NCBI GenBank assembly: GCA_021323395.1
Contig: JAJONL010000016.1
Location: forward strand, 1-33,641
Origin: Nitrospira sp.
GTDB lineage: Bacteria > Nitrospirota > Nitrospiria > Nitrospirales > Nitrospiraceae
DNA: 33,641 nucleotides
Reading direction: 5' to 3'
Within the stretch, counting starts at the first letter, position 1. Each line of letters starts with the position of its first letter. Below, piece after piece: positions 1,367 to 16,563 of this stretch. Made by a program: the position numbers and the translations under genes. The notes under the pieces are model-generated. The model saw only the letters and a program-made list of their open reading frames with translations, was not told the DNA's origin and searched no databases.

Positions 1367-3061
1367 TTAATCCAGCCCTCCTTTGAGCCTGACTATTCTG
1401 TATGCTTCACCTAATGTTGCAGTGGCTTCCACTCCATACTCCTGTTGAAATCTTGCGATTTCAACCGAGAGAGGCTTGACATTTCCGATAATCCGCCTAC
1501 ATAGATCTGCGCCCTTGTCGCCAAACTGGATTCTCCATTCATCACAAACGGAATTTCTCTTTTCTGGGATTCCGGCCTCATCGAGTATAACTTCCACGAA
1601 TTGTTCATATAGATCTATTCTCGTCTCAGGCAATATCCTCGAACCATGCCGCAGGAATATTAGGATAGTCATGGTTATGAATATCGGGGATCCGACTAAT
1701 TCGCGGAGTCTGGACTTTTGCAGAAGACCTAGGAAGTTTTCAGCGTCTTCATTGCTCCGGTTGAAACAGTCAAACCATCTGAGAACAAGATCTTTAACTT
1801 GCCACTCCTGGAAAGGGAGAGCATCATACCGATAGAAGTGTTCACCCGTGAGTGAGGTGTCCAACTCTGATAACGGGCGCGATGTAACTAGAAAAGTGAT
1901 TCGTTGGTGGGCAAGCCGAACTTGCCTGCCAATAGAATCTAATAATTCGCGACGTTGCGTCGGGTTAACTACTTCGTCCATTCCATCGATAATTACAAGC
2001 CATCCACATTTACCGGGTAACGGGTCTACAAAAAAATTAGAAGGAAGGCCGCGTACTAGCCGCTTCCCTGGGAAAGACACAATCTGCGTCTCCACCGCTC
2101 TAGTGAATGAACCGTCGGATGCAGTAGTTGGGGCAAATTCCCGAGCGGAAAGGTAAACGGGGATCAGCTCCTTTTGCTGACCACTGCGCCAAGATTCTGC
2201 TAGAGTCACCGCTAGGGATTTCACCATTGAGGTTTTTCCACTACCTGGTTCACCTTGAAGCAGTATGTGTTTTCCTCTAGCAACAGCCTGATCAATCGTG
2301 ATGGCGGTATCGTCCTCACAATTGCCTTTACGAAGGTAGAAGTCCCGCATAGGGCGCTTAATCGTAGGCTTCACATATATTGAGGACAACGGCGGCACGC
2401 TAGTTCTGTTACAACCTCGCACGAGTTCCGTGTAAGGAAGTCTATTTAATTGTTCCGCCAATATTGTGCAGTACTCATCGAAAGCTTCTTTGCTGCGGAG
2501 AATCCCCTGCAGTTTCGATTTCAGTATTTCCACCGCCAGATGATCGGCATTGGTGAAGCGAAAGGGGTAGCGCTCCATCTCGGCCAAGCGTTGCAGGTGC
2601 GCCTGCTGAGCAGCGCACTGCTGCGGAATCCGTTTATAGCGCTCATCGCGAGGTGCGTTGTCTTCGGGCGAAGCGATGATCAGGGGCTTGCGGTGATAGA
2701 GAGCGAGCCACGCCTCCCACTGGGTGTAGGAGAGCGCCGGGGCGCCTGACTGGAGAAATGGGGCCAGCGGTGGCAGCGTCTGACCCAGGTTGGGATAGCG
2801 CTCCCGGATCACGGCCAGCGACGGCCCCTTCGCCAACGCGCCGGTCATGTCGCCCACGAGATGGATCACTGCGTCGCACTGCCGGATGTAATCGTCCAGC
2901 ATGTCGAGGGTCTCCGTGCCGGTCACAATAAAATCTTCCTGCACGGCCACTGAAACATTCGGACGCGTCAGGTCGTGGCGCAGCCGATCCCGGTAGTTGC
3001 GGAACTCCGCACTGACGGTCGAGAGGAAAATCTGTAGATGGGTGATGGCTAGCACCCCCAA
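1367..3061 (-). pseudogene. DUF4062-NACHT NTPase, 3' end cut off by nonsense codon and IS3
   Basis: The N-terminal DUF4062 module (from HLQIFLSTVSAEFRNYRD to about residue 120) is common at the front of bacterial NACHT and other STAND proteins. A NACHT NTPase follows, with Walker A GEPGSGKTS at about residue 270 and Walker B LVIIDGMDEV at about 360, then the helical and winged-helix regions. Such proteins act as oligomerising switches in prokaryotic immunity. The frame meets TAA at 1367 but continues meaningfully to about 1244 (see the next entry), where the IS3 element replaces the rest; the C-terminal sensor part is lost. The start is uncertain: TTG 3061 and GTG 3055 fit the domain boundary, neither has a clear ribosome site, and an in-frame TTG at 3142 overlaps another reading frame. 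The DUF4062 half is visibly more GC-rich than the NACHT half, suggesting module exchange. Confidence 0.8.
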
Positions 3062-3083
3062 CCAAGGGACTGCGGCTAAATAC

Positions 3084-3260
3084 TCACAAGTACTTACATA
3101 TCTTATCGAGAGTTGGCTCCCTGTATGGCTTGCAGTCAGCAACCATCACCAGGGTGGTGTAAAGCTTTCCCTGATTCGGGGACCACTCTTTAAGATTCTT
3201 CAGCTGCTCGCCAATCTCCGTTTGCGTCAACTTCGCAAGGTCCGTTACAATGTCCTCCAC
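3084..3260 (-). CDS. Small orphan reading frame, possible gene fragment
   Basis: This minus-strand frame lies between the pYEATS-TIR gene and the DUF4062-NACHT gene. It encodes about 58 residues with coding-like, amphipathic-helix character (VEDIVTDLAKLTQTEIGEQL, then KLYTTLVMVADCKPYREP). The open frame reaches further upstream with equally plausible residues (KSEEVIDRLLGR) but has no ATG, GTG or TTG there. GTG 3260 is the only usable start, and its AGGAAGG sits too close to it. It may be the tail of a gene lost by frameshift or deletion, or the former N-terminus of the NACHT protein before its DUF4062 module arrived. I recognise no family. Confidence 0.35.
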   Translation of the reverse strand: MEDIVTDLAKLTQTEIGEQLKNLKEWSPNQGKLYTTLVMVADCKPYREPTLDKICKYL

Positions 3261-3310: not shown

Positions 3311-4033
3311 TTACGCTTTTCCGAACGAAGACTTGAGGATGTCTCCCGCCATGGCTTCAACGCTCTCCGAATCGGCAACCCGGACTGCTTGTATGTGCCG
3401 CAACGCATCAGGGATCTCTACATCGTTCCCGACTAAAATGGAGACTATATGGCGCACCCCTCCTTGAACGGCAGCTTTAATCTCTTCCTTCTGGGACAGA
3501 TTGGGCTGGCCTGAGATCACGAACACAGCAGCGTCAGCCCGAGCAATCTTGTCGCTGGTTTTCTGCCACTCCTCACCGGGTTTGACATCTTGCGATCCAG
3601 TAACCCGAATATTCTGTTTCACGAGGGCTTCGCCTACGGCGCGAACGGCGTCTCGGTCTCTGATACCCCCAGACACAAAGACCGTATGGTGAGGAGGCTC
3701 TTTCTGCGAGGCACTCACGCCCGGCTTCTTCCTAGTCCGAGACGCAGGTCCCTCCGAATTCCTAAGTTCCAAATAGTGCTCCCGTCTGGTTGTGGAGCCA
3801 TCCTTATAGTTGATCTGGAGGTAGATCGTGAATTCCCCCCAGCCCGATGAGTCCAATCGAAAGCCTGTCTTTCGATCAGAAATAGGCACGACCGGATTGG
3901 GAAATGTCGGGTGAAGCGTATAGACCACGTGGTCAATGGCATCGAGCTCTTTCTTGCCTCCATCCAGCCACACCGACCATTCCCACCAATCTTTACTCTT
4001 TAGTACTGTTTGCTGCTTGATCTGTATCGTCAT
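3311..4033 (-). CDS. pYEATS-TIR domain protein
   Basis: This is a 240-residue protein with two domains. Residues about 5-92 match the prokaryotic YEATS (pYEATS) beta-sandwich: an aromatic start (WWEWSVWL), then VVYTLHPTFPNP, GFRL and GWGEFTIY, in the order of the family. Residues about 115-236 form a TIR-like fold (HHTVFVSGG, VKPGEEWQKTS, ADAAVFVIS, KEEIKAA), with E183/E184 as candidates for the catalytic glutamate of NAD-hydrolysing TIR domains. pYEATS is thought to act as a recognition or adaptor domain and TIR as effector; the precise trigger is unknown. ATG 4033 has GGAGGT eight bases upstream and overlaps the stop of the upstream gene as ATGA, so the two genes are translationally coupled. 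An earlier in-frame start at 4096 would lie inside that gene and is unlikely. Confidence 0.8.
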   Translation of the reverse strand: MTIQIKQQTVLKSKDWWEWSVWLDGGKKELDAIDHVVYTLHPTFPNPVVPISDRKTGFRLDSSGWGEFTIYLQINYKDGSTTRREHYLELRNSEGPASRTRKKPGVSASQKEPPHHTVFVSGGIRDRDAVRAVGEALVKQNIRVTGSQDVKPGEEWQKTSDKIARADAAVFVISGQPNLSQKEEIKAAVQGGVRHIVSILVGNDVEIPDALRHIQAVRVADSESVEAMAGDILKSSFGKA

Positions 4034-4725
4034 TCGCCAGCACCTCCGGATTTCACGGTCACCTGAATCCATTGCGAGGTGGCCACAGACTCCCATTTCT
4101 TCCTCGCCTGTTGAATCTGGACCTGGATCAAATGGTCGTCCTGGACGCCGTTGACAAACACAAACGTACCTCCGGCTTCAGGGACAGGCGTCAGATCTTT
4201 CCAGTCCGAATAGATTCCCCGGAGCCAGAGGCGATGGCGACACTTGATCCCGTTGTCGCTACTTCCCAGTCTCCTCGCAACCGCGTCTGGCAGAATTTGC
4301 ACTTTCACGGTTCGCCCGAGCTCTTTTCTCCACAGCCCAATGGTATCTGATAATCTCATCAATGCATGGATAGGATCGGCCTTGTCCAAGGGAATGTACT
4401 CATGGGGTTGAGACATTCCTTCAATGTCGACATCCTGTTCTACTAAGGCAATGGCTTTCTTGTTGTTTGCTCGCGCATATCCCATTTCATCAAGCACCCA
4501 TTGATGAGTCGTCCACTTCCCGTCTTCCTTTGAATCACGTCTGGTAAGAATGGCGACAAGCGCATCGCTATTCATGATCCGCTGTTGAACCGCGGGAGTG
4601 AGTTGTTCCCCTGCGAGGCGTTCTCCCGTCTCGACATCAACCAGATGGCTGGTGATCAATTGCCCCACCTGCTCGACGATGTCCTTGTCTTCATTGCGAA
4701 ACGAAAACCCCAGGAATATTTTCAT
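4030..4725 (-). CDS. TIR-like domain protein with C-terminal beta-rich domain
   Basis: This is a 231-residue protein. Residues 1-130 look like a TIR/STIR-class Rossmann domain: strand MKIFLGFSF, helix, then RIMNSDALVAILTRRD, WTTHQWVLDEMGYA and KKAIALVEQ. E80 in WVLDE is placed like the TIR glutamate. The remaining part (about 137-231) is predominantly beta (RTVKVQILP, GTFVFVNGV, QWIQVTVKSG) and may be a small sensor or adaptor sandwich; I do not recognise it. The start has GGAGG eight bases upstream. The stop overlaps the next start as ATGA, tying it to the pYEATS-TIR gene, so the two proteins probably work together. It belongs to the same minus-strand conflict cassette. Confidence 0.65.
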   Translation of the reverse strand: MKIFLGFSFRNEDKDIVEQVGQLITSHLVDVETGERLAGEQLTPAVQQRIMNSDALVAILTRRDSKEDGKWTTHQWVLDEMGYARANNKKAIALVEQDVDIEGMSQPHEYIPLDKADPIHALMRLSDTIGLWRKELGRTVKVQILPDAVARRLGSSDNGIKCRHRLWLRGIYSDWKDLTPVPEAGGTFVFVNGVQDDHLIQVQIQQARKKWESVATSQWIQVTVKSGGAGE

Positions 4726-4799: not shown

Positions 4800-6125
4800 T
4801 CACTGCTTCGAGCGACGTACCAGCTCGTTCTCAATCTCGTTTGGCCATTCAATGCGTTCGTTTCGCCGCTCACGGGCCTCACGAATCAACCTGAGATTTC
4901 TTGCCGTTGTCTCCGGCTCCCAAACTTCTCGCACGGCAGCCAGTGCATCGGCCAGCGTCACCTCAGCCTTCTGTTGCTCGTTGGCAAGCACGGCCAATTC
5001 AAGAAGCGTCGCGTGGTCCCAATAGTCCGGCTTGCCCGACGCGATACGTCGTTCCACGGCGTACGAGACAATTGGAATGAGTCGCGCGCGCCGAGGGTCC
5101 GGAGGATCTTTAATCTCCATCAAGGTCACGGCGTTCACTCCTGGATAGGCATCGCGCCAATCTGTTTCAAAACCCTTGAGGTAGGCCTCAACGGCTTGCC
5201 CCAACAACCCACGTGCGAGTGCCTTTTCGCCGAGTTTGAGAGCAGCGTCCCATCGGTCTTTGTAGACACGGCCGAGAATGCCATAGGTCTCGCTGCTGGG
5301 CCCACGGTTGGCCAGTAGATCAAGCAACACTCGCTCCGCCTCAATTCCACGACCGGCCCGATTCAATGCCAATCCCCACTGCTCTTGCACCAGCACGGTG
5401 GCAGCCAAGGGGGAGGTCATCTTGTGCACCAGCGCGATCATGTCCTCCCATCCCTTCACCGCTCGGTAGGAGAGAAACAGATCGACCACCACTCCCGCTT
5501 CCGCATCGTGCACTGCCCCGAGTTCGTGTTCGACAGCCCGTACCGCATCGAGTCCTTCCCTGCGGGCCTGTGTCAGCTTCTGGCGAAGCCCGGCGGAATA
5601 TTGAACCCGATCTCGAAACACATCGGTCTTCAGCCGCTTGATTTCGGGAAAACCTTCTACCAACTGGAAGACTGGGCTATCCGTCATCATCTTGCGCGCG
5701 TCCTGCAACTTCTTGGTCAACGACTGCAGATCCGTATGGTTCGCTGATGGCTTGCCGTCGGTGCCGAGTTGATAGGGAAGGGCCCGAAGCGGCGCGACAT
5801 CGAATGGAAGCTGCCCCAAGCCCTGGGCAAATAGGAGCACGGTGCTGGCTGGTCGAACGGCATGGCGCAATCCCAATTCGTAAAAGACATTGGCATTTGC
5901 CGTGGTGAGGTCAGCGATCGCGTATTCACAAAGGATCAAACGCTCATACATTGGTTTGTGGATGACACCACCAGTCATCTCCTCATCGGCCCGCAACGGT
6001 TCAAGACCGGCAGCCACTACCGCCGGCCGGATGAGTTGATCGTAGACGGCATCGAAGTCCACCAACCGCCCCTCAGCAGCAGGCTTCTTCCCAAACGGCA
6101 TGAGCACGAAACACAAAGGCAACAT
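4800..6125 (-). CDS. Deoxyribosyltransferase-like and TPR-S (TRAFs-binding type) protein
   Basis: This is a 441-residue protein. Residues about 1-110 resemble the nucleoside 2-deoxyribosyltransferase-like fold found in conflict systems: CFVLMPFG, AGLEPLRADEEMTGG, CEYAIADLTTANANVFYELG. The acidic E83 in NVFYELG matches the position of the family's catalytic glutamate. The rest is alpha-helical repeat sequence (RGIEAERVLLDLLANRG, ETYGILGRVYKDRWDAA) like the TPR-S or TRAFs-binding domain often fused to it. The likely role is an effector or nucleotide-processing module with a protein-interaction scaffold. ATG 6125 has AGGA about six bases upstream. It lies 74 bases ahead of the TIR-like gene in the same orientation. 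The catalytic activity is inferred, not shown. Confidence 0.72.
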   Translation of the reverse strand: MLPLCFVLMPFGKKPAAEGRLVDFDAVYDQLIRPAVVAAGLEPLRADEEMTGGVIHKPMYERLILCEYAIADLTTANANVFYELGLRHAVRPASTVLLFAQGLGQLPFDVAPLRALPYQLGTDGKPSANHTDLQSLTKKLQDARKMMTDSPVFQLVEGFPEIKRLKTDVFRDRVQYSAGLRQKLTQARREGLDAVRAVEHELGAVHDAEAGVVVDLFLSYRAVKGWEDMIALVHKMTSPLAATVLVQEQWGLALNRAGRGIEAERVLLDLLANRGPSSETYGILGRVYKDRWDAALKLGEKALARGLLGQAVEAYLKGFETDWRDAYPGVNAVTLMEIKDPPDPRRARLIPIVSYAVERRIASGKPDYWDHATLLELAVLANEQQKAEVTLADALAAVREVWEPETTARNLRLIREARERRNERIEWPNEIENELVRRSKQ

Positions 6126-6273: not shown

Positions 6274-7395
6274 TTACTCTACAATATCTTTGACAAGACG
6301 AAAGCCAAGGTCATTGGTCCGATTGGCTCCGCCCCACCATCGGGCAGAAGAACCGAGTTCCACAGGACCATGAAACCATGAACCACCCCGAAGTCCGTGC
6401 GCACCTGGCTCTTCTTCGTCATACCTGTCGACACACCACTCCCAAACATTTCCTGCCATGTCATAGCAGCCGTAAGGGCTCACCCCCTGTGGATACTGAG
6501 TCACTGGTGTCGTCCGAGCAGTCAATATACGAGCAGGGTTCAGACTGTTACATTTCGAATTGTCAAACTCGTCTCCCCATGGATATATACGTCCATCCTC
6601 GCCACGTGCGGCCTTTTCCCACTCTTGCTCGCTTGGAAGGCGTTTCCCCGCCCACTTCGCATAGGCCTCTGCCTCGTAATAGCTGACTCCCACAACGGGA
6701 TGATCGGCTTTATTCCATTTCGAATCATTCCAATATTGTGGAACTGTGATATCGCTCTCTACCCTCCATTTCCACCCTTTAGGTGACCAATAGGCCTTGC
6801 TCCCGTAACCATTTTCCAGGATGAACTTGCGAAATTGCTCATTCGTCACGGGATATCTATCGATCCAAAAGTCGTGATCAATCGCTTCACGATCCCTCGT
6901 TTTTCCGTACAGAAATGGTCCCTTCGGCACCCTAACCATTTCAGATAATAGTTGTACCTTCGACTGTTTCAGCGGAGTCTGCGGAGCACCGCACACCAGA
7001 CGCAGAGCTACCACCCGGGCAATATCCTCCATAAATTGGTCGAAGCCTGAATGGGATTTTCCAAATTGCCAATCCGTCAACCAAGCTGCCTGCACATGCC
7101 GAAATTCCAAAGGAATTTGAGCTTCCTCCCAAAGCATCGCCGGAAATAAGGCACTTCGTTTCAGGGCTTCCCTGGCTTCATTCTTGACCCATTGAGACTT
7201 CACGGATGTCTTGGTCCAGACCACAACCACGGATTTCGATGTATCCAAGGCTTTCTCAATCACCTCATCCCATATTTCTGACGTACGAATACGACGATCC
7301 CACCAAACCGACCAGCCTCTCTGTTCCAAGGCATCAGCCAGGGGCTGTACTCGATCTCTGTCTTTCCTGGCGTAACTAATGAAGATGTCACTCAT
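6274..7395 (-). CDS. TIR-SUMF1 (formylglycine-generating-enzyme-like) fusion protein
   Basis: This is a 373-residue protein. Residues 3-125 are a clear TIR domain: DIFISYARKD, WSVWWDRRI, then SVVVVWTKTSVKSQWVKNEAREAL. W69 and E73 correspond to the W-x3-E arrangement around the NADase glutamate. Residues about 150-370 are a SUMF1/FGE-sulfatase domain (FWIDRYPVTNEQF, RLPSEQEWEKAARG, GNVWEWCVDRY, LRGGSW, LGFRLVKD). The paired cysteines that carry formylglycine-generating activity near the C-terminus are absent, so this part is probably a C-type-lectin-like binding domain, not an enzyme. A sensor/effector pairing is the natural reading. The gene starts 19 bases after the CHAT gene and has only a weak ribosome site, suggesting co-transcription and possibly coupled translation. 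Confidence 0.88.
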   Translation of the reverse strand: MSDIFISYARKDRDRVQPLADALEQRGWSVWWDRRIRTSEIWDEVIEKALDTSKSVVVVWTKTSVKSQWVKNEAREALKRSALFPAMLWEEAQIPLEFRHVQAAWLTDWQFGKSHSGFDQFMEDIARVVALRLVCGAPQTPLKQSKVQLLSEMVRVPKGPFLYGKTRDREAIDHDFWIDRYPVTNEQFRKFILENGYGSKAYWSPKGWKWRVESDITVPQYWNDSKWNKADHPVVGVSYYEAEAYAKWAGKRLPSEQEWEKAARGEDGRIYPWGDEFDNSKCNSLNPARILTARTTPVTQYPQGVSPYGCYDMAGNVWEWCVDRYDEEEPGAHGLRGGSWFHGPVELGSSARWWGGANRTNDLGFRLVKDIVE

Positions 7396-7414: not shown

Positions 7415-10400
7415 CTATGGCTTACCTCGCCGTGACGATCGAGTACGTTTCTTCGCAACAGCTTTCCTCCGTATCGGCCGTCTCGGTGATGGCTTCGCAG
7501 GAGAAGCCAATGGGCTTGCGACCGCTGCCGCGTCACCATCCTTCTGCTCCTCCGCTCGCTCGAGATGGTGTAGGATGGTTTCCAATGCGTTCAGCACTGC
7601 CTTCGCTTTCCTGTCATCGCCACGAACAGGAATCAATTTGTGTTTCATCGTGATGAGAAACTCCAGTTGTCCAAGAGCCGAGTCTCTCTGCCGTTTTGTC
7701 GCCGCCGACTCAAGGAACACTCGTCGGTAGGTTTCCACGAGATTGTCATGCTCGTCCGGCAATGTCCCCTTCTGGTACGCTCGAACGACCGCGATGTCCG
7801 CGACAGTGAAGAGATCCCAGACGCTTCGTCGATCCTGAAAACGTTGTTTCGCCAAAACTGCCGCTTTGGATAGCCACGACTCATACGGCACCTGTGTGTT
7901 TCCAAGCAAGGCCTCAATCGCCAGCCAATTCAGGATCGGATACGGATCTCCACACTGCTCCTCTTTCTTCGCTGCCCGCTGGTAGAACTGCGCTGCCTTG
8001 ACGAGACTAGCATTCACATCAGCTGGCACAGCTTGGAGCCCCGCCAGTCGCTTGTACGCGCTGCCCATGATGCTGAGCCGTTCGGATGTTTCCCCTAAGG
8101 CCAGTAAATGCTCACCCCGCTGAATAGCTTGCTCAATCTTCGCCGTATTTCCGGTCGTTCCACCGAACCGTGCCTCAACGTTAATCCACTGCTCGATTGC
8201 TCTCAGGGATGACGAATTTTCACAGGCCTCACTTTTCGCCGCCAGCTCGTAGTGTATGCCTGCGCTTTGAAACATCCCATGTTCACCATACGCTACCCCA
8301 AACTTCTCTTGAACATCCCCCCGTTTCAGCCACTCTGCGGCACAGTTCCGCTCGAGTTCCACAAGGCGATCGCGTAGCTTAGCCGCCTCAGACTCTGTGC
8401 TCTCCTGAGAGAGCCTACTGAGTGTAATCAGCACTTCTTCCGCCGCAACCGTCGCTTCCCCGTCCCCACCGGTAGGCGCTTCCACATTCGGCCTGAGACG
8501 GAACTCAGGATCCCCATATGCCTGATATGCGCCCCACGTTGTGGAATCCGGGTATTTGTCCCATGTCTCCTTTCGGGCCTCCCTCAGAGCGTGCCCAAAT
8601 GAGCGGTCTGCAAGCAACGCAGCATAAAATGTTTGGGCAAAGCAGTGTGCCGCATCGTCTCGAACTGGCCAGCCGGCTGCCACCACCGCGCGCACTCCTT
8701 TCCTGATCAATTCACGCGAAATGCTGGCCGCCAGTTTATTCGGAGCTACGAGACCGATCTGTCCTAGGTAGCAACAATTCAAAAATACCAACTCGGGAAT
8801 CGGATCAAGTTGAGCAATCTCGGCCGCAGTGATAAAGAGGTCGTTGTCAAGCACGACCCCAGCCCTGGCGCCTTCCGTTGCTGTGGCGGCTTCGTTGTAA
8901 TATCCGTGACCGGCGATGTGAATGATCCGGTAGGGCTGAGCAAAAAGCTGATTCAGGACCTCAATAGGACCGAGGCGCTCACTCGAGTAATTCACGGTAT
9001 AGCGCGACTTCAGCAGCGACGCGACGAGGCCTGCTTCCTGCCTGGCACCAGGCAGCGACGGATACGTCGGCGGCGTCAGCGGGTCGCCGACGACATAGAC
9101 GCCGGTCGATGTGGCATCTCGGACACGTTGTTCATAGTCCGTAGTTTCAAGCTGTCGGACCATCCCCATGCGAACGCACAACGGTTCGCCTGAGTCAATC
9201 ATCATCTCCCACGGATAGTTCGCCGTCACGTTGTCGAGGACAAAAACAACCCGGTCTTGATTGAGGAGGCTGTCCTTGAGGTCCAGCGGAATCAAGAGCT
9301 TGAAGAGCGTTTTAGCAATATCTCCTCTATAGCTAGTCGAGCCGATCGATCGCTGGATCAGCTGTGCAATGAGCTCCGATTGTGTTTCTTGCACCATCGC
9401 TTCCGCACGAGCCCGATCGGAGAGGGCGAGAAAGCGGAGTTTGTGCGGCAGACCACGCTTAGGGGCACCATCCCGGAATGCGAGCTCGACCAATGCGCTT
9501 ACCAGCTTCGGATCGAGAGTTTTTTCGTCGCGGAGACTTGCACGAAGCCGGTCTTGTAAGACCGGCGGGAGTGTACCAGGATGGGGCGCAACGGCATCAT
9601 GAACGGCGGTGACGGTCCAGCGTCGCCAATAGCCACGCGCGCTGGATGGTACAAGCCTGGTTTGCCCTCCCACTCCCCTCTTTAACCACGTCGATACCTG
9701 AATCTCCGTGTGCAGTTCGCGTTGAATGTGTGTGGAAACACGATGTGCCGATTTGGCGGCGTCGATCGCGATGTCCAAATAGAGCTCGACGAACTCCAAG
9801 TGTCCTATTCTGGGAAGAGTCGCATTCTGTTGCTGGAGGGCATGATTCGCGAGGGCGACGCCCCGCACGATAGCATTGATGGAATCTTCGACCGCGATAT
9901 TGGCCGCGGTATTCGAGCCGATCAGTAGGCTGTTGATGGTCAGCCCAGTCGATACGTCGGGGGCCTCGGTTGTGCCGCAACACTGGGAATATTGCACACA
10001 GTACTCTGTGATGCCCTGTTGTACCGCTTGAGTCAGGCGTGTAGGGGTTAATTCGCCCCATTTGCCAAGCCCAAGGACGATGGCACCATGTTGAATACGA
10101 TAGACCGATTGCACCTGGTTTGCTTTCCCAAGTACCACGGCGGCGGTCCCTAAGCTTCCCGGGTAGCGACCAAGATGGTATCGCTGCGACAGCGCGCCAT
10201 TGACCATTTGATCAACGAGTTTCTCGGCGCCTGCGATGGTATCGCCTCGGTAGTGCCCCATCAGAACCGGATAGTTCGTCTGGAGCAGATCGCCGTGACA
10301 CACTGACACCTGCAACTTCTCTGAGACACCCACCTTTCGCGCCCTTCGTCGTCTCCCCAACAAGCCGGCTTCGAGATCCGCTGTCGTCGGGTACAGCACT

Positions 10401-13036
10401 GGTTCAGGTTCGTACTCAAACACACGGTCCCCGCCTCGATCTGCGCTCAAGGGCGCAGTCGAGAGCTGGCTGGTCACACCTCGTTCGAGCAAATCGCGAT
10501 AGGCTGGGAAAGCGGGTTTGTGATCTGACAAATCGCCATGCTCAGCATCGACATACCAAACCGGAATATCGGGGAGGAATCCCGCTTGATACGTCACACG
10601 GCCATCACCGGCCGTGGTCGCCTTGAAAGATAAGCGCTCACCGTCGAGAGAGAGCCCGCATACCGTCCGAGGGGCCCACCCTGCGACATACCGCACACGA
10701 TCCGAATGCGGAATTCGCTCGGGAAGATCAACCAGCGCGTCTTTCGCATCTCGCAAGAGTCGTGACGCAATTTGAACTTTGGACTCGGTGTAGGGATGAA
10801 GTGCCGCCCACTTCAGATCGGTAAAGTATTCCCATTTATTGTCGTGAGGGAGGAGCTCCAGTGCTCCTGGATAACCCGAGACCAGGGCCACGATCTCATC
10901 CAGAGAATGTTCGACGTCGAGCAAGGCCAGCTGTTTCACCGTCTTCGCCATCCCGGCTAACGATTCCACCATATCGTACGATCCTCGGTTTGGGGTGCCG
11001 AGCATGATGAATCGAGCCCCTTCATGACGACAGATCATGTCCCACAAGTCTGGATGGTCATGAATGAAGCGCCGCACCACGAGCCCACCCATGCTATGCG
11101 CCAGAAACCGAATCGGCTCACGAGTACGACTCACGACTTTTTGTACTTCCTCGGCCAACGCGGAGGCTGCGTGCTGGATCGATTGGCGCCAGTCGTAGCC
11201 GAACGGAAGCACCTCATGGGAATCAGCGAGATATTCGCAGAGGCCGCGATAGTAGGAACCGACCAGACCGCTGACATTCACATTCGAGGCACCCAAGGCA
11301 AGTTTATCGATTCCGCCGCGGAAAAGCTGCCAATACCTCAACCACACATCCATGCCGTCAACCTGCAACTCTGACCCCATAATTCCGGGAAGCACAAACA
11401 CGACGGGCTGAGTCGCCCCGGATCTCGTTTGAATGGCGCGCAGCATCGGGACCGGCTCGACCTTGGCTTCTTCGAGCGGCCGAAACTCTGGAGGCCACGG
11501 ATCACCCGTAATCGACTGAGCCAACAGGTGGCGCGTGCGGGCATTCCGGAAGTAGCGGAAATGAGAGACATCGGCCCCTTGATCGAAGATATATCGAGCG
11601 GGCTTCTCGCGTGAGACCCCCTGAAACATGGAGTTCGTATTGACCACCAAATCATTGTCTTCATTGTCGTAGAACACGGTGTCTGTGAGGAACACGCCCA
11701 ACCGTTTGAACCAACTCCCCCCTTCAATGTCGCCGGCGATGACCCCCAGGTCGCCAGCTGCTTGCACATCGGGAGCGTTGAGCAGAGCCACCAGCGGCGA
11801 TTGCGGCACCATCGATTCAATCCCTGGGATCACGGACGGATCCCATCGACGCTTAGCGGTTTCGAGCGTAATGCGTTTGATGACTTGATATACCGGAGAT
11901 TGTCCGACGACAGGAATCAAACCGATGAGGCTGGTTACTACTGAAAGAAACCGATCCAAATTTTCCGATGCCAACAAGGTTCCCTGAGATGGGCACGCCA
12001 CCCGGATCACGCGCTGGACCTGAAACCGCTTTTTGCGGAGCACTCGTGCCAACTCTGTCAGCTGCGTCTGATCGTGTTGATCGGCCTCGTTTGCAGTGCC
12101 TCCTTTGCGACCAAAACGACCGATCTGCTCGGACAAGAGTTCTTTGAGGCACAGGAGATCGGCTATCTGCCCTCCTCTGGAGTGAGTCACGATGGTGAGG
12201 CGCGCTCCATCGGGAAGTGCATTCGCCAGCACCAACGCATTGTCGATCGGACTCTGGCTCATGGTCCGATGCTCGAACGCGTAGATGTGCTCCTTAAAGG
12301 TTTGAGTGAGCGTCTGCCATTCCGATGACGCATCGTCACCGTGGAGCGCCCCAAAGCTCCCCTGCGTGTTGGAAGCCGTCCCATGAATAAAGAGCAACAA
12401 AGGTTGGTTCGAAGGTATGACCGCCGGGGGGATGAGTGAGGACGCATTCTCGGTCGATGATTTCACCCAACGATAGAGTCCCTCCTCGGGACGAATCTTT
12501 GTCTCAATGAGCCAGATAATCAGTTTGGCCGTAAGCCAGGCTCCCAGTTGCTCAAAAGTTGTGATGCCCTGTTCTTTGACCCATGCCGGCCATTGCGTGG
12601 GGTCCTTGGCTTGATCCCAGATCTCATCGCGCTTCAATCGGAGAATTCGCACCGCTCCGGTGGCGATATCGCTCACCACACCTCTGCTCGCAGGGACTCC
12701 TGGGATGAACGGCCCAATATCTAATCCTCTGGTCCGTTTTAGCTGCGGGTTCAACCGGTATTGCCGGTCTCGGTACGCCGCCACGGACATCCACATCGAC
12801 ACTCCATCCTCCAGCACGAATTCAATGATGTCGTCCTCTTCTGCATCAAGCGGAGCTGGAACGTCGTTCGCCCCACGAGCCGTGGGGCGAACATCGTACG
12901 CGCCCAACACCTCGACGGTATCCAGCAAGTGTGTCTCATCCTGAATCTTTCGTCCGGAAAGAGGCGCCCCGCGAACAGTGGCCTTGGCTTCCTCCGTCGA
13001 TGTCGGTTGCCCAATGATGCGAAGTTGAATGCGCAT
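7415..13036 (-). CDS. Giant double-hydrolase CHAT-protease TPR protein
   Basis: This is an 1873-residue protein. Residues about 210-500 form an alpha/beta hydrolase (LLLFIHGTAS at about 215, nucleophile motif VTHSRGGQ at about 285). Residues about 540-860 are a second, LCAT/phospholipase-like hydrolase (LPGIMGSELQ at about 550, HSMGG with serine at about 648). Residues about 880-1000 may hold a macro-like domain; this is weak. Residues about 1260-1535 are a CHAT caspase-like protease with His in IHIAGHG (about 1375) and Cys in VFLNCC (about 1421). Helical TPR-like repeats follow to about 1790, and the tail is strongly basic (KKRTRSSRR). The ribosome site GAGGAGA precedes ATG 13036. As first gene of the cassette it probably supplies the main executioner: proteolysis, lipid attack, or both. 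It has no signal peptide, so it should act in the cytosol. Confidence 0.87.
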   Translation of the reverse strand: MRIQLRIIGQPTSTEEAKATVRGAPLSGRKIQDETHLLDTVEVLGAYDVRPTARGANDVPAPLDAEEDDIIEFVLEDGVSMWMSVAAYRDRQYRLNPQLKRTRGLDIGPFIPGVPASRGVVSDIATGAVRILRLKRDEIWDQAKDPTQWPAWVKEQGITTFEQLGAWLTAKLIIWLIETKIRPEEGLYRWVKSSTENASSLIPPAVIPSNQPLLLFIHGTASNTQGSFGALHGDDASSEWQTLTQTFKEHIYAFEHRTMSQSPIDNALVLANALPDGARLTIVTHSRGGQIADLLCLKELLSEQIGRFGRKGGTANEADQHDQTQLTELARVLRKKRFQVQRVIRVACPSQGTLLASENLDRFLSVVTSLIGLIPVVGQSPVYQVIKRITLETAKRRWDPSVIPGIESMVPQSPLVALLNAPDVQAAGDLGVIAGDIEGGSWFKRLGVFLTDTVFYDNEDNDLVVNTNSMFQGVSREKPARYIFDQGADVSHFRYFRNARTRHLLAQSITGDPWPPEFRPLEEAKVEPVPMLRAIQTRSGATQPVVFVLPGIMGSELQVDGMDVWLRYWQLFRGGIDKLALGASNVNVSGLVGSYYRGLCEYLADSHEVLPFGYDWRQSIQHAASALAEEVQKVVSRTREPIRFLAHSMGGLVVRRFIHDHPDLWDMICRHEGARFIMLGTPNRGSYDMVESLAGMAKTVKQLALLDVEHSLDEIVALVSGYPGALELLPHDNKWEYFTDLKWAALHPYTESKVQIASRLLRDAKDALVDLPERIPHSDRVRYVAGWAPRTVCGLSLDGERLSFKATTAGDGRVTYQAGFLPDIPVWYVDAEHGDLSDHKPAFPAYRDLLERGVTSQLSTAPLSADRGGDRVFEYEPEPVLYPTTADLEAGLLGRRRRARKVGVSEKLQVSVCHGDLLQTNYPVLMGHYRGDTIAGAEKLVDQMVNGALSQRYHLGRYPGSLGTAAVVLGKANQVQSVYRIQHGAIVLGLGKWGELTPTRLTQAVQQGITEYCVQYSQCCGTTEAPDVSTGLTINSLLIGSNTAANIAVEDSINAIVRGVALANHALQQQNATLPRIGHLEFVELYLDIAIDAAKSAHRVSTHIQRELHTEIQVSTWLKRGVGGQTRLVPSSARGYWRRWTVTAVHDAVAPHPGTLPPVLQDRLRASLRDEKTLDPKLVSALVELAFRDGAPKRGLPHKLRFLALSDRARAEAMVQETQSELIAQLIQRSIGSTSYRGDIAKTLFKLLIPLDLKDSLLNQDRVVFVLDNVTANYPWEMMIDSGEPLCVRMGMVRQLETTDYEQRVRDATSTGVYVVGDPLTPPTYPSLPGARQEAGLVASLLKSRYTVNYSSERLGPIEVLNQLFAQPYRIIHIAGHGYYNEAATATEGARAGVVLDNDLFITAAEIAQLDPIPELVFLNCCYLGQIGLVAPNKLAASISRELIRKGVRAVVAAGWPVRDDAAHCFAQTFYAALLADRSFGHALREARKETWDKYPDSTTWGAYQAYGDPEFRLRPNVEAPTGGDGEATVAAEEVLITLSRLSQESTESEAAKLRDRLVELERNCAAEWLKRGDVQEKFGVAYGEHGMFQSAGIHYELAAKSEACENSSSLRAIEQWINVEARFGGTTGNTAKIEQAIQRGEHLLALGETSERLSIMGSAYKRLAGLQAVPADVNASLVKAAQFYQRAAKKEEQCGDPYPILNWLAIEALLGNTQVPYESWLSKAAVLAKQRFQDRRSVWDLFTVADIAVVRAYQKGTLPDEHDNLVETYRRVFLESAATKRQRDSALGQLEFLITMKHKLIPVRGDDRKAKAVLNALETILHHLERAEEQKDGDAAAVASPLASPAKPSPRRPIRRKAVAKKRTRSSRRGKP

Positions 13037-14196
13037 GCGCTCTCCTCTGCGATGGTATAACGTCTGAAGACACCCGCGGCTTAGAGACCGCTGTGGTGAT
13101 TACCCCCTCTAGCTGGGAAACAGGCAGTCGAACGCGGTGCGTTGCGCTTCAATCTGGGGCACTTAATCACAATCGTTCACGCTCAGCTTCCCGTCTTTAC
13201 CATTACCGGTTGAGCGGAGAAGAAGCCCCTTCGGATCAGCAATTCCAGCCACCATGGTCAGGTCTCGCCCCCTTACACAGAGCAACCCGCGCTGCTTTTA
13301 CTCCGTTTCCACATTGATGCCAAGACAAAATTGTTCGACGCATATAAGAAAGAATACCAGCATTATGGCGAGGCACACGGAGGCACTTGACGCCCCCCAC
13401 AAAACAATGACAGTTCACAACCAAAGTAAGATGCCGCTTCGACGGTGCCATGGGAATAGGAGGGGTCCCATGAAGCGGTCGAAGTTCACCAGCGTTGGCT
13501 CCCCGATCGCCGCATGCCAATGATCGACTGGGAGTTGACTGGCCACGAGGGTGGCGCGCCGCCCGTGCCGATCGTCCAGCAGTTTCAACAAATCGCGGCG
13601 GTGCTTGCAGTAAAGGTAAATCAGACTCATCAAGCCCCGCTTCGAGACCTCGTGAATTGTTGTTCTTTGTGGGGATAGGTAGTCGGAGGTGGCCTTGTCT
13701 GAATTTAGGAAACCGCAGGTCGAGCTACTAACTTTGTCCCGTATAGGACAGCCACTCTGTAAGTACCTGTAAATTGACTTAATAGGTGGGAAACTATTTC
13801 GACCCAAGCAAATGGTTTTACTTCTCTTTACCGGCTCTTTTAAGGCCAGATCCTAGGCGCAGCTACGTGCCAGTCGGGGCTGTGAATGCAGCCGCCAAAC
13901 GCAGTGTGCTCGCTCCATCGTTTTCTGTTGGTCGAGGCCAAACCAACCTCTCGGAATCATCAGCGCTTTAACACCGTTCCCCTTGACAACCTCGCATAGA
14001 ACTTCTAGCCTCGTTCCGTCTAGTGCACACCAAGTAAGTATTAGGTCGAGTGCAAGAAACTTGACGGGCCAGCACGGGTCCACCACGGAAGACCACCCAA
14101 TGCCACCCGCCTTTTCCCATGTCTCCTTTGATGTAAATGGACCAGGATTTAGAAGCTACGTTCTTAGGCGACACACTATGATGATCCTTCCTCGTG
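13037..14196. other. Gene-poor stretch upstream of the conflict cassette
   Basis: About 1.16 kb with no convincing complete gene on either strand. It must hold the promoter of the minus-strand CHAT operon, but I see no strong -35/-10 pair. The only recognisable content is an istB remnant at 13490-13600. Base composition drifts lower in GC in the 13,600-14,200 part. It looks like decayed mobile DNA. Confidence 0.5.
13490..13600 (-). pseudogene. IS21-family IstB ATPase remnant
   Basis: A minus-strand stretch encodes a segment typical of the C-terminal half of IstB helper ATPases: RRDLLKLLDDRHGRR, then TLVASQLPVDHWHAAIGEPT. The family normally continues with a DAILDRLVHNA-like segment; here the frame changes to unrelated residues (LVNFDRFMG). 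The upstream Walker motifs are not found. It is a short relic of an IS21 element. Confidence 0.72.
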
Positions 14197-14789: not shown

Positions 14790-16022
14790 ATGGCGAACAT
14801 TGAGCAAGTATTCAAGCTCCGTCCGGATATCATCAACGGAGATACCTCTGCAGCGGAGGCTAGCACCGAAAGCAGGCAGAAGCGGATTAAGGAATTTCAG
14901 TCAGTCCCAGGATTTGGAGCCATAATCCTCTCACCGGTAGCGGTAGGGTTTGGTGTCAATATTCAAGCAGCCAATCATGTCATTCATTTCACCCGAACAT
15001 GGAACCCAGCCAAGGAAGACCAGGCGACTGATCGCGCATACCGCATAGGGCAAACGAGGGACGTCTACGTCTATTACCCTGTTGGTTGGTGGGAAAATGT
15101 CGAGGCGTGCCACTCAGTGGAAATCGCCGAAGGTGACTTCACGCGGCTGCGCGAGGATCTCATCGGTTTCCTGGAAGGGCTTGAACGACGAGTTGGAGAA
15201 AAAGCGTCTGATGGCCACGCCTCTCTTCGAGCCATTCGGAGCTTCTTGCGGACGACGGAGCAACGCACCAAGCGGTCGAGCGAAGGCATTCTCCATACGC
15301 ACTTCTTCGACGGTCGATCTTCCTTTCCCGATTTCCTCCGACAAGTTGCCGGAAGCGGCTTGGATGGGATGTGCCTGGAGATTATCTCGCCATACTTCGA
15401 TGAGGGACCGACGTCTGTGCCACTCGACGACCTGATCAGTCAGTTCAAGCCTCGTGAGGTGCGGGTGTTCCTCCCCCGAGCGCATACCGGGGAGGCGCTC
15501 TGCTCGCAGCAGATCTATGAGTGGGTTCGACGCCTGCCGGACGTGACCTGGGCTAGGTTGCCTCATGAGCTACTCCGCGGAGGCAAGAGTGAAGACGTGC
15601 GCCAGCGAACGGTTCACGCGAAGGTCTATCGGTTCTTTACGGCGCAACCGAAGCGCGAAATCCTGTTCGTCGGTTCGGTCAACCTGACGAGTCCTGCCCA
15701 TCGGCCAGGCGGCAACCTCGAGACAGGGGTTCTCGTGGAGCTGTCCCCACCTCGGCGACCAGACTGGTGGCTCATGGCTGATAGCTCGCGTCCGCGGGAG
15801 TACAAGCCGTGTCTCGAAAACGAGGGCAACACTGTGAGCGGCGGTACCAAGTTATCCGTACGATTCTGGTGGAACACTATGGCGGCTGAAGTCTATTGGG
15901 ACGACTCGTCGTTATCGCCGAAACTTAGTGTGACGGCGCAAGGGGTGGAGGTGTTTGAGACGGATGTGAAGTACCGTGGCCTAACCGTCTGCTCGAACAC
16001 GTTATGGCTTCCCGTAAGCTGA
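14790..16022 (+). CDS. Headless SNF2 helicase C-terminus joined to a PLD-type nuclease
   Basis: This is a 410-residue frame. Residues 1-98 are the end of a SNF2/DEAD-like helicase C-terminal domain: INGDT, ILSPVAVGFGVNIQAANHV (motif V) and DQATDRAYRIGQ (motif VI). The whole first RecA domain and Walker A are absent. From about residue 100 the sequence is a phospholipase-D-superfamily (HKD) nuclease: HAK with H276 and K278, then FVGSVNLTSPAHRPGG and NLETG. Helicase and PLD nuclease genes are common neighbours in phage-defence loci. The in-frame join near residue 98 looks like a deletion scar but could be a natural fusion. The first ATG follows directly on the truncated upstream gene with no ribosome site, so expression is doubtful and the frame may be a pseudogene. 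Confidence 0.65.
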   Translation: MANIEQVFKLRPDIINGDTSAAEASTESRQKRIKEFQSVPGFGAIILSPVAVGFGVNIQAANHVIHFTRTWNPAKEDQATDRAYRIGQTRDVYVYYPVGWWENVEACHSVEIAEGDFTRLREDLIGFLEGLERRVGEKASDGHASLRAIRSFLRTTEQRTKRSSEGILHTHFFDGRSSFPDFLRQVAGSGLDGMCLEIISPYFDEGPTSVPLDDLISQFKPREVRVFLPRAHTGEALCSQQIYEWVRRLPDVTWARLPHELLRGGKSEDVRQRTVHAKVYRFFTAQPKREILFVGSVNLTSPAHRPGGNLETGVLVELSPPRRPDWWLMADSSRPREYKPCLENEGNTVSGGTKLSVRFWWNTMAAEVYWDDSSLSPKLSVTAQGVEVFETDVKYRGLTVCSNTLWLPVS

Positions 16023-16041: not shown

Positions 16042-16563
16042 GGCGCCATCCAACGTGATTTGTTGTCGGAGGACAATTTTAAATTTTTCAAGCAAGAAGT
16101 TTCGAAACTATTGGCCGAACGCAGCCGCACCGAGACCCCGGATCAACAAAGGCCGAAGCGGCTGAAGCAAGTTGAGCAGGAAATTAGCAACATTCTACGA
16201 GCCATTAAGCAAGGGATTTTGACGCCCTCCACGAAAGCTGAATTACAAAAGGTCGAGAGGGAGCGTGATCGGATCCAGGAAGAGCTTAAGGACCACAGGT
16301 CCAGACTTAATGACTTGGCGCTTCTTATGCCAAAGCTAAAGGAGCGTTTCGAGAAGATAGTATTCGAGATTCAAAGCCTTCGGGCTCATCATGTAGACAA
16401 GGCACGGGCCATTCTAAGGAATCTTCTCGGGGAGCAGATCATTCTTCACCCGTGTGCCGATGGTACTGAGCGCTTTTTAACGGCGGAAATGTCGGGAAGT
16501 TATGCGGGACTATTGAAACTCACAGTAGGTAAAAATAAAGCTGGTGGAGGGCAGGGGAGTTGA
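16042..16563 (+). pseudogene. C-terminal fragment of a large serine recombinase
   Basis: The frame reads GAIQRDLLSEDNFKFFKQE and then a long coiled coil (about residues 25-100: RLKQVEQEISNILRAIKQG, ELQKVERERDRIQEELK) and ARAILRNLLGEQIILHP. This is the order seen in the last third of large serine integrases: end of the recombinase domain, coiled coil and terminal beta region. The catalytic N-terminal resolvase domain and zinc ribbon are missing; the sequence before about 16042 belongs to something else. The open frame starts with TTG 16060 and stops at 16561-16563, inside the 3' end of the opposite-strand tRNA-Ala gene. This is consistent with an integrated element whose end abuts the tRNA. 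Confidence 0.78.

Follow-up and report, generated by a model that had tools for sequence, protein, structure and literature searches.

A six-domain Nitrospira protein that joins two alpha/beta-hydrolases to a CHAT protease: a possible signal-gated cell-suicide protein

The pairing of caspases with alpha/beta-hydrolases was proposed for the VMAP and GAP1 conflict systems by Kaur et al. 2020 (PMC7159879). In these systems, which are predicted to act in immunity, a protease of the caspase superfamily is functionally paired with an alpha/beta-hydrolase, as would likewise be the case in the protein analysed here (P0001); there, however, the hydrolase is the product of a neighbouring gene and is accompanied by MoxR-vWA-VMAP or GTPase parts, whereas P0001 unites two hydrolases, a macro-like domain, CHAT and TPR-S in a single chain. 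The main text of PMC7159879 does not use the terms LCAT, TPR-S and aminopeptidase, and no MoxR and vWA partners, as in the VMAP ternary system, were found among the annotated neighbours of P0001 in the window (the whole analysed stretch of Nitrospira sp. DNA, 33,641 nucleotides, to which all coordinates refer unless a locus is named). Csx29 (the TPR-CHAT protein of Craspase) has the CHAT fold and TPR-type repeats in common with P0001, but the repeats of P0001 are C-terminal, belong to the TPR-S/ASK1 type, and share their chain with hydrolases and a macro-like domain. No CRISPR genes were seen near P0001 in the window, and neither Cas7-11 nor a CRISPR array, as in Type III-E Craspase, was found among the annotated window neighbours or in the loci of the relatives examined.

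In TM-macro Thoeris, macro domains such as that of ThsA sense the products of TIR proteins (PMC11204291). P0001 has nearby TIR genes and a macro-type fold in common with this system; yet the Thoeris effector is membrane-spanning, whereas P0001 would be a protease-lipase with a macro-like domain of the M17 N-terminal type and putative ligand binding. P0001 has no match to the curated models of ThsA, and its TIR neighbours in the window match ThsB-type models only partly, far under the NCBIfam cut-offs. A TIR-activated caspase-like defence is credited to Rousset et al. 2025 in PMC12799240 and PMC13174449 and, as far as these citing papers describe it, comprises TIR genes beside a caspase-fold protease, which is also the arrangement at P0001. 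Protease-activated nucleases have been described in Hachiman, AVAST and Canu (PMC12799240), the last of which resembles P0001 in coupling a caspase-family protease to a separate effector enzyme and in having TPRs in its loci. The Canu effector is an MBL-fold nuclease cut in trans, whereas the candidate effectors of P0001 are lipases fused in cis. To our knowledge, neither a lipase fusion nor a separate metacaspase partner is a feature of TIR-activated caspase-like defence. The literature searched contains no paper that names DUF7379, none that combines CHAT with TPR-S and pYEATS (both of which reportedly go back to Burroughs and Aravind in 2020), and no description of the six-domain family, nor do we know of one. 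Every single part of this family is of a known kind, and it is the combination that looks undescribed. On the strength of its sequence and of structural models, we tentatively put forward as quite possible the reading that P0001 is a signal-gated cell-suicide protein, in which a protease core would license the attached hydrolases to damage membrane lipids.

P0001 is encoded on the minus strand (7415..13036), as are the metacaspase remnant and the TIR-FGE, TPR-S/MAP3K, TIR-like, pYEATS-TIR and DUF4062-NACHT genes described below, and starts with an ATG at 13036 that follows a GAGGAG ribosome-binding sequence. The 1873-residue frame noted at this position in the initial annotation is a real and intact gene, to which we can now assign the strand. 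Pfam matches along the chain are, in order, DUF7379, LCAT, CHAT and TPR-S. The LCAT/PLA2-type lipase, the CHAT protease and the TPR of the original domain list all stand, but the list lacked the macro-like domain (residues 905-1110) and the lost metacaspase partner. Comparison with the orthologue from the genome G133 gives a dN/dS of ~0.10, with synonymous sites near saturation; P0001 is intact and under purifying selection, and its TPR-S and C-terminal tail are the fastest-evolving regions. Two AlphaFold2 models were built on alignments of real relatives, one of residues 1-900 (mean pLDDT 83.3, pTM 0.59) and one of residues 890-1873 (mean pLDDT 80.4, pTM 0.66), the pTM values implying that inter-domain orientations are unreliable. 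Model confidence is low at 526-540, about 890-905, 1383-1392, 1424-1428 and 1518-1525, and these stretches are candidates for flexible linkers or regulatory sites. Residues 1-205 (12422..13036) form an N-terminal domain without a known name, mixed alpha/beta according to the AlphaFold2 secondary structure and kept in full-length relatives. A linker (residues 866-904, 10325..10441) that includes the sequence GRRRRARK connects the hydrolase half to the macro-CHAT half; the start of the C-half model falls here with pLDDT <50, and relatives that consist only of the C-terminal half start just past it. The chain ends in a tail (residues 1841-1873, 7418..7516) that is basic, as first noticed, and disordered (pLDDT 33-38). 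A phmmer search of the PDB with the whole of P0001 found no match, and PADLOC models gave no strong match, only weak partial ones over the CHAT part (SAVED_CHAT 7.7e-5, BovA 9e-4).

Alpha/beta-hydrolase 1 (residues 206-505, 11522..12421) is of the DUF7379 type (PF24096, 7.7e-34; 117.7 bits, cut-off 33). Its HSRGG motif begins at residue 285, so that the nucleophile is Ser286, and the model places this residue in a nucleophile elbow between a strand (279-285) and a helix (288-295). The triad consists of S286 (12179..12181), D462 (11651..11653) and H492 (11561..11563). Alpha/beta-hydrolase 2 (residues 530-865, 10442..11449) matches the LCAT profile (6.6e-8; 32.6 bits, cut-off 21); its HSMGG motif begins at 647, which makes Ser648 the nucleophile, and the triad is S648 (11093..11095), D811 (10604..10606) and H833 (10538..10540). 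The motif positions first given for the two hydrolases were right to within a residue or two, the nucleophiles being Ser286 rather than 285, and Ser648. The best fold match of the hydrolase 2 model is lysosomal phospholipase A2 (VIA Z 27.5, 289 residues, rmsd 2.7), followed by LCAT (25.5), Tle4 (24.2) and the phospholipase PlaB (19.1), and in the profile alignment S648, D811 and H833 align with the Ser, Asp and His of PLA2G15. Lysosomal phospholipase A2, LCAT and Tle4 thus have the fold and the positions of the Ser-Asp-His residues in common with hydrolase 2, but they are secreted, lysosomal or injected and carry no protease fusion. Profile, predicted fold and triad positions together place hydrolase 2 among the LCAT / group XV phospholipase A2-like lipases, with phospholipids as its putative substrates. 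S286, D462, H492, D811 and H833 are kept in 42/42 relatives and S648 in 41/42, with Cys in the remaining one. The two serine-hydrolase folds and the LCAT-like lipase proposed at the outset are thus borne out, and both triads are complete and conserved. For hydrolase 2 the model lends support through its fold matches, which fill the list obtained for residues 1-900, and for hydrolase 1 through the nucleophile elbow.

The macro-like domain (residues 905-1110, 9707..10324) gave no Pfam match when the full-length protein was scanned. Its model is closest to the N-terminal domain of leucyl aminopeptidase (VIA Z 16.1) and to the macro domain of macroH2A1.1 (15.3), and its PDB profile match is 3jru. 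Peptidase_M17_N (PF02789) matches it in 31/46 members (best 1.1e-8), the window copy alone scoring 19.2, under the curated cut-off of 23.4, while the Pfam Macro model matches 0/46 members. We therefore assign the region a predicted macro-type fold, of the M17 N-terminal type by sequence. We are not aware of ADP-ribose binding by domains of this type.

The CHAT protease (residues 1195-1520, 8477..9454) was identified by Pfam PF12770 (2.2e-34; 119.7 bits, cut-off 24) and its model has the fold of separase (Z 20.6) and of Csx29/TPR-CHAT (Z 17.5), in keeping with the initial annotation. The His/Cys pair singled out there lies in IHIAGHG (1372-1378) and VFLNCC (1417-1422), but the Cys is probably C1422 and not C1421. 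H1377 (8906..8908) is kept in 49/49 relatives, and H1377 and C1422 (8771..8773) directly follow predicted strands (1371-1376 and 1416-1421). C1422 occupies what we take to be the Cys position of the usual CHAT 'LSACxxG' pattern; since C1421 is as conserved as C1422 (both are present in 48/48 non-gapped rows), the assignment of C1422 is indirect, and His1377 with Cys1422 is the most likely dyad judging by alignment and model. The repeats that follow, at first called TPR-like, are of the TPR-S sensor type (residues 1529-1845, 7502..8452; PF20308 6.7e-11; 43.1 bits, cut-off 27.6), and their model matches the central regulatory region of ASK1 (Z 19.8).

A scan of genome contigs with the single protein returned no close relatives, and relatives were recovered via an alignment of the macro-like domain. 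Searches of the phylum identified full-length orthologues with 65-69% identity in two genomes (G133 and G289) and about 40% in three others, as well as C-half-only, LCAT-macro-CHAT (about 1050 aa) and DUF7379...CHAT relatives. The macro-like-domain scan of GTDB genomes yielded 56 loci from Nitrospirota, Pseudomonadota, Thermodesulfobacteriota, Myxococcota, Acidobacteriota and Actinomycetota, which is a lower bound because a single peptide pattern (HYxG...) was used; the conservation of the HYxG motif is for the same reason partly a product of how the loci were picked; the catalytic residues lie outside the pattern. About 40 loci in all, from several phyla, code for both hydrolases with macro-CHAT. 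Full-length relatives occur on plasmids of Azotobacter, Paracoccus and Ensifer, where the records annotate the family only as 'CHAT domain-containing protein', and next to the Azotobacter plasmid copy lie a type I restriction system and its Fic genes.

In the maximum-likelihood tree of the macro-CHAT part, the C-half-only forms of Nitrospira group in one clade (100/97) that sits within the full-length Nitrospira proteins, including that of the window, for which a single loss of both hydrolases is the simplest account; three other C-half-only rows (L055, L061 and L082) may be contig-edge or start-site effects. This subclade has kept the metacaspase, the macro-like domain, CHAT and TPR-S, and a separate clade comprises hydrolase 2 with macro-CHAT and no hydrolase 1. 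Such a pattern of loss and retention makes the protease core the constant part of the family and the hydrolases a removable output, and it implies that the protease does not need a fused lipase in order to function. The subclade that dispensed with both hydrolases while keeping its protease core, TPR-S and metacaspase would also suit a different, somewhat unlikely reading, in which the CHAT protease is itself the executioner that cuts many cell proteins and the hydrolases are regulators, for instance deacylases, which would govern membrane attachment or the processing of a lipid cue. The CHAT fold is indeed that of known proteases, and similar action is reported for TIR-activated caspase-like defence in the papers citing that work, but both hydrolase triads are invariant across phyla, the nearest matches of hydrolase 2 are phospholipases and Tle4, an antibacterial lipase, and most lineages retain the hydrolases, all of which speaks against this reading.

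Several variants were observed alongside these lineages. A related family of ~1057 aa (L038-L042) lacks TPR-S and consists of hydrolase 2, a macro-like domain that has diverged, and CHAT; most members have the same metacaspase gene upstream. The locus L043 (G000:C227:1-7499) has its genome's second DUF7379...CHAT gene, which seems to be broken into two overlapping frames (681 + 560 aa); in genomes of the same genus the counterpart is a single frame of about 1165 aa. At nine Nitrospira loci (among them L030:6531-7310 and L031:3840-4616), the C-half-only CHAT gene is followed by that of a conserved 258-aa protein with no Pfam match, possibly a replacement effector.

A C14 metacaspase is encoded immediately upstream, on the same strand, in 21/55 testable loci, ranging from Nitrospira to Rhodocyclaceae, Methylococcaceae and Mycolicibacterium (for two of them the Pfam matches are 3.6e-34 and 1.9e-30); in many relatives an adjacent metacaspase is absent. 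It is present in 11/14 Nitrospirota neighbourhoods, compared with 0/20 for 20-kb regions drawn at random from the same genomes (p 1.3e-6). In the window, the last 49 codons of such a gene persist as a remnant with an in-frame stop (13112..13255; tblastn 41% identity, E 1.9e-4), and the gap of ~72 bp between the remnant and the next start is close to the 74 bp of the intact G133 operon; the window genome has lost its metacaspase gene. Metacaspase cleavage is Arg/Lys-specific. The basic linker (866-904) was considered as a cut site for the partner, which is not supported: its K/R content is 0.12 in loci with a metacaspase, 0.16 in loci without, and 0.117 elsewhere in the protein. At six Nitrospira loci (e.g. 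L028:8645-9034 and L033:11765-12202) the metacaspase gene is preceded by one for a small protein of 129-145 aa, the N-terminus of which is very basic.

The gene order in the window is metacaspase remnant, P0001, TIR-FGE, TPR-S/MAP3K, TIR-like, pYEATS-TIR and DUF4062-NACHT. Directly downstream of P0001, the TIR-FGE protein (6274..7395) combines TIR_2 (5.4e-22) with a C-type-lectin-fold FGE-sulfatase domain (1.9e-57). It is followed by a protein with Pfam TPR-S and MAP3K_TRAF_bd matches (4800..6125), a TIR-like protein (4030..4725; TIR_2 1.2e-6) and a pYEATS-TIR protein (3311..4096; pYEATS 5.4e-22, TIR_2 5.6e-11), which are 79%, 73% and 65% identical, respectively, to their counterparts in the G133 operon. 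The DUF4062-NACHT gene (1367..3142; NACHT 8.4e-12, DUF4062 7.8e-7) is, going by its position, probably truncated beside an IS3-type insertion, whose transposase genes (35-1278) adjoin it. DUF4062 has been reported as a TIR-like NADase (PMC13174449, preprint). On the other side of P0001 lie the C-terminal fragment of a SNF2 helicase that is ZorD-like and has a PLD-like domain (14790-16022) and an apparent serine recombinase C-terminus (16060-16563). A tRNA-Ala(CGC) gene closes off these fragments, which probably mark an old integration site or the edge of a defence island.

TPR-S proteins are encoded in 9/14 Nitrospirota neighbourhoods versus 0/20 random 20-kb regions (p 3.8e-5), while TIR, with 6/14 versus 3/20, is not significantly enriched (p 0.12). 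Patatin phospholipase genes occur at 10/61 loci and DUF4062-STAND-FGE proteins at some, and tblastn found none of the metacaspase, TPR-S and TIR partners at 16/61 loci, some of which lie on short contigs. At one locus (L064:2309-7094) the six-domain gene and a DUF4062-STAND-FGE gene before it flank a diversity-generating retroelement; this comprises a reverse transcriptase, a template near 6675 and a variable repeat near 4895, within the FGE domain. The variable copy differs at 23/35 template A positions versus 21/85 other positions. Mismatches are thus concentrated at template A, and the retroelement mutates the FGE domain of the DUF4062-STAND-FGE protein. The TIR-FGE gene of the window has no second copy that could serve as such a template repeat in the genome sequence searched.

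Some copies of the family lie among ordinary metabolic genes, and at several loci the next gene encodes a peptidoglycan-binding/muramidase protein, a sigma factor or an AraC regulator, as might be expected if P0001 had its role in normal remodelling of lipids, in envelope stress or in cell death during development rather than in phage or plasmid defence. We find this improbable in view of the patchy distribution and plasmid copies, the associated TIR, TPR-S, DUF4062-STAND, patatin and metacaspase genes, and the retroelement-diversified sensor beside one relative. That the window copy is a decaying relic, which may not work in its own strain, is suggested by the metacaspase remnant with its stop, the probable truncation of the NACHT gene and the nearby fragments of the ZorD-like helicase and, probably, the serine recombinase, but is doubtful given the open frame of 1873 codons, the retention of all catalytic residues, a dN/dS of about 0.10 and the many relatives that also lack an adjacent metacaspase.

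The architecture recurs across several phyla with TIR and caspase genes alongside, which makes P0001 look like a 'self-destruct' immune protein, and neighbourhoods with TIR, TPR-S, pYEATS, DUF4062-NACHT and metacaspase genes fit a cell-suicide or immunity protein. In the reading that we tentatively favour, signal-gated cell suicide, the constant core of macro-like domain, CHAT (separase/caspase-fold) protease and TPR-S sensor would be kept off at rest. Infection would be detected by the neighbouring TIR, DUF4062-STAND-FGE or TPR-S proteins, and the core would be switched on by an NAD-derived nucleotide signal and/or cutting by the partner metacaspase; the active protease would then license both attached hydrolases, of which hydrolase 2 is lysosomal-phospholipase-A2-like, to damage the membrane lipids of the cell itself. 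The retroelement at L064, the plasmid copy beside a restriction system and the retention of the core where the hydrolases were lost also count in favour of this reading. Against it stand the M17 type of the macro-like domain and its lack of a Macro match, the non-significant enrichment of TIR, the 16/61 loci with none of the three partners, a basic linker that does not follow the presence of the metacaspase, and the loss of the metacaspase from the window copy. Here we infer the NAD-derived ligand and the domain that would bind it, the action of the protease on the hydrolases, the host membrane as target and phage as trigger, together with the cutting of P0001 by the metacaspase and the substrates of the hydrolases. 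Licensing of hydrolases by a protease, of which the proteolytic release or activation of the lipase suggested at the outset would be one form, is plausible by analogy, with precedents in the VMAP pairing, in proteolytically activated nucleases and in the sensing of TIR products by macro domains.

A bolder version, which we consider quite unlikely, is an 'inflammasome-like' switch within one protein, in which the M17-type macro-like domain and/or TPR-S would bind a TIR-made NAD-derived signal and open the separase-like protease, and the protease and metacaspase would unleash the two fused phospholipases. If true, this would amount to a two-protease cascade ending in lipid attack, and the macro-like domain would be a new class of immune nucleotide receptor. 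In bacteria, the activation of nucleases and the cutting of cell proteins are both known functions of caspase-like proteases. With phospholipases built into the same chain, caspase-like control would be linked directly to membrane destruction, in a parallel to lytic cell death that dispenses with gasdermin. The subclade of Nitrospira that has shed its hydrolases would in turn provide a natural experiment on the division of labour in a widespread family.
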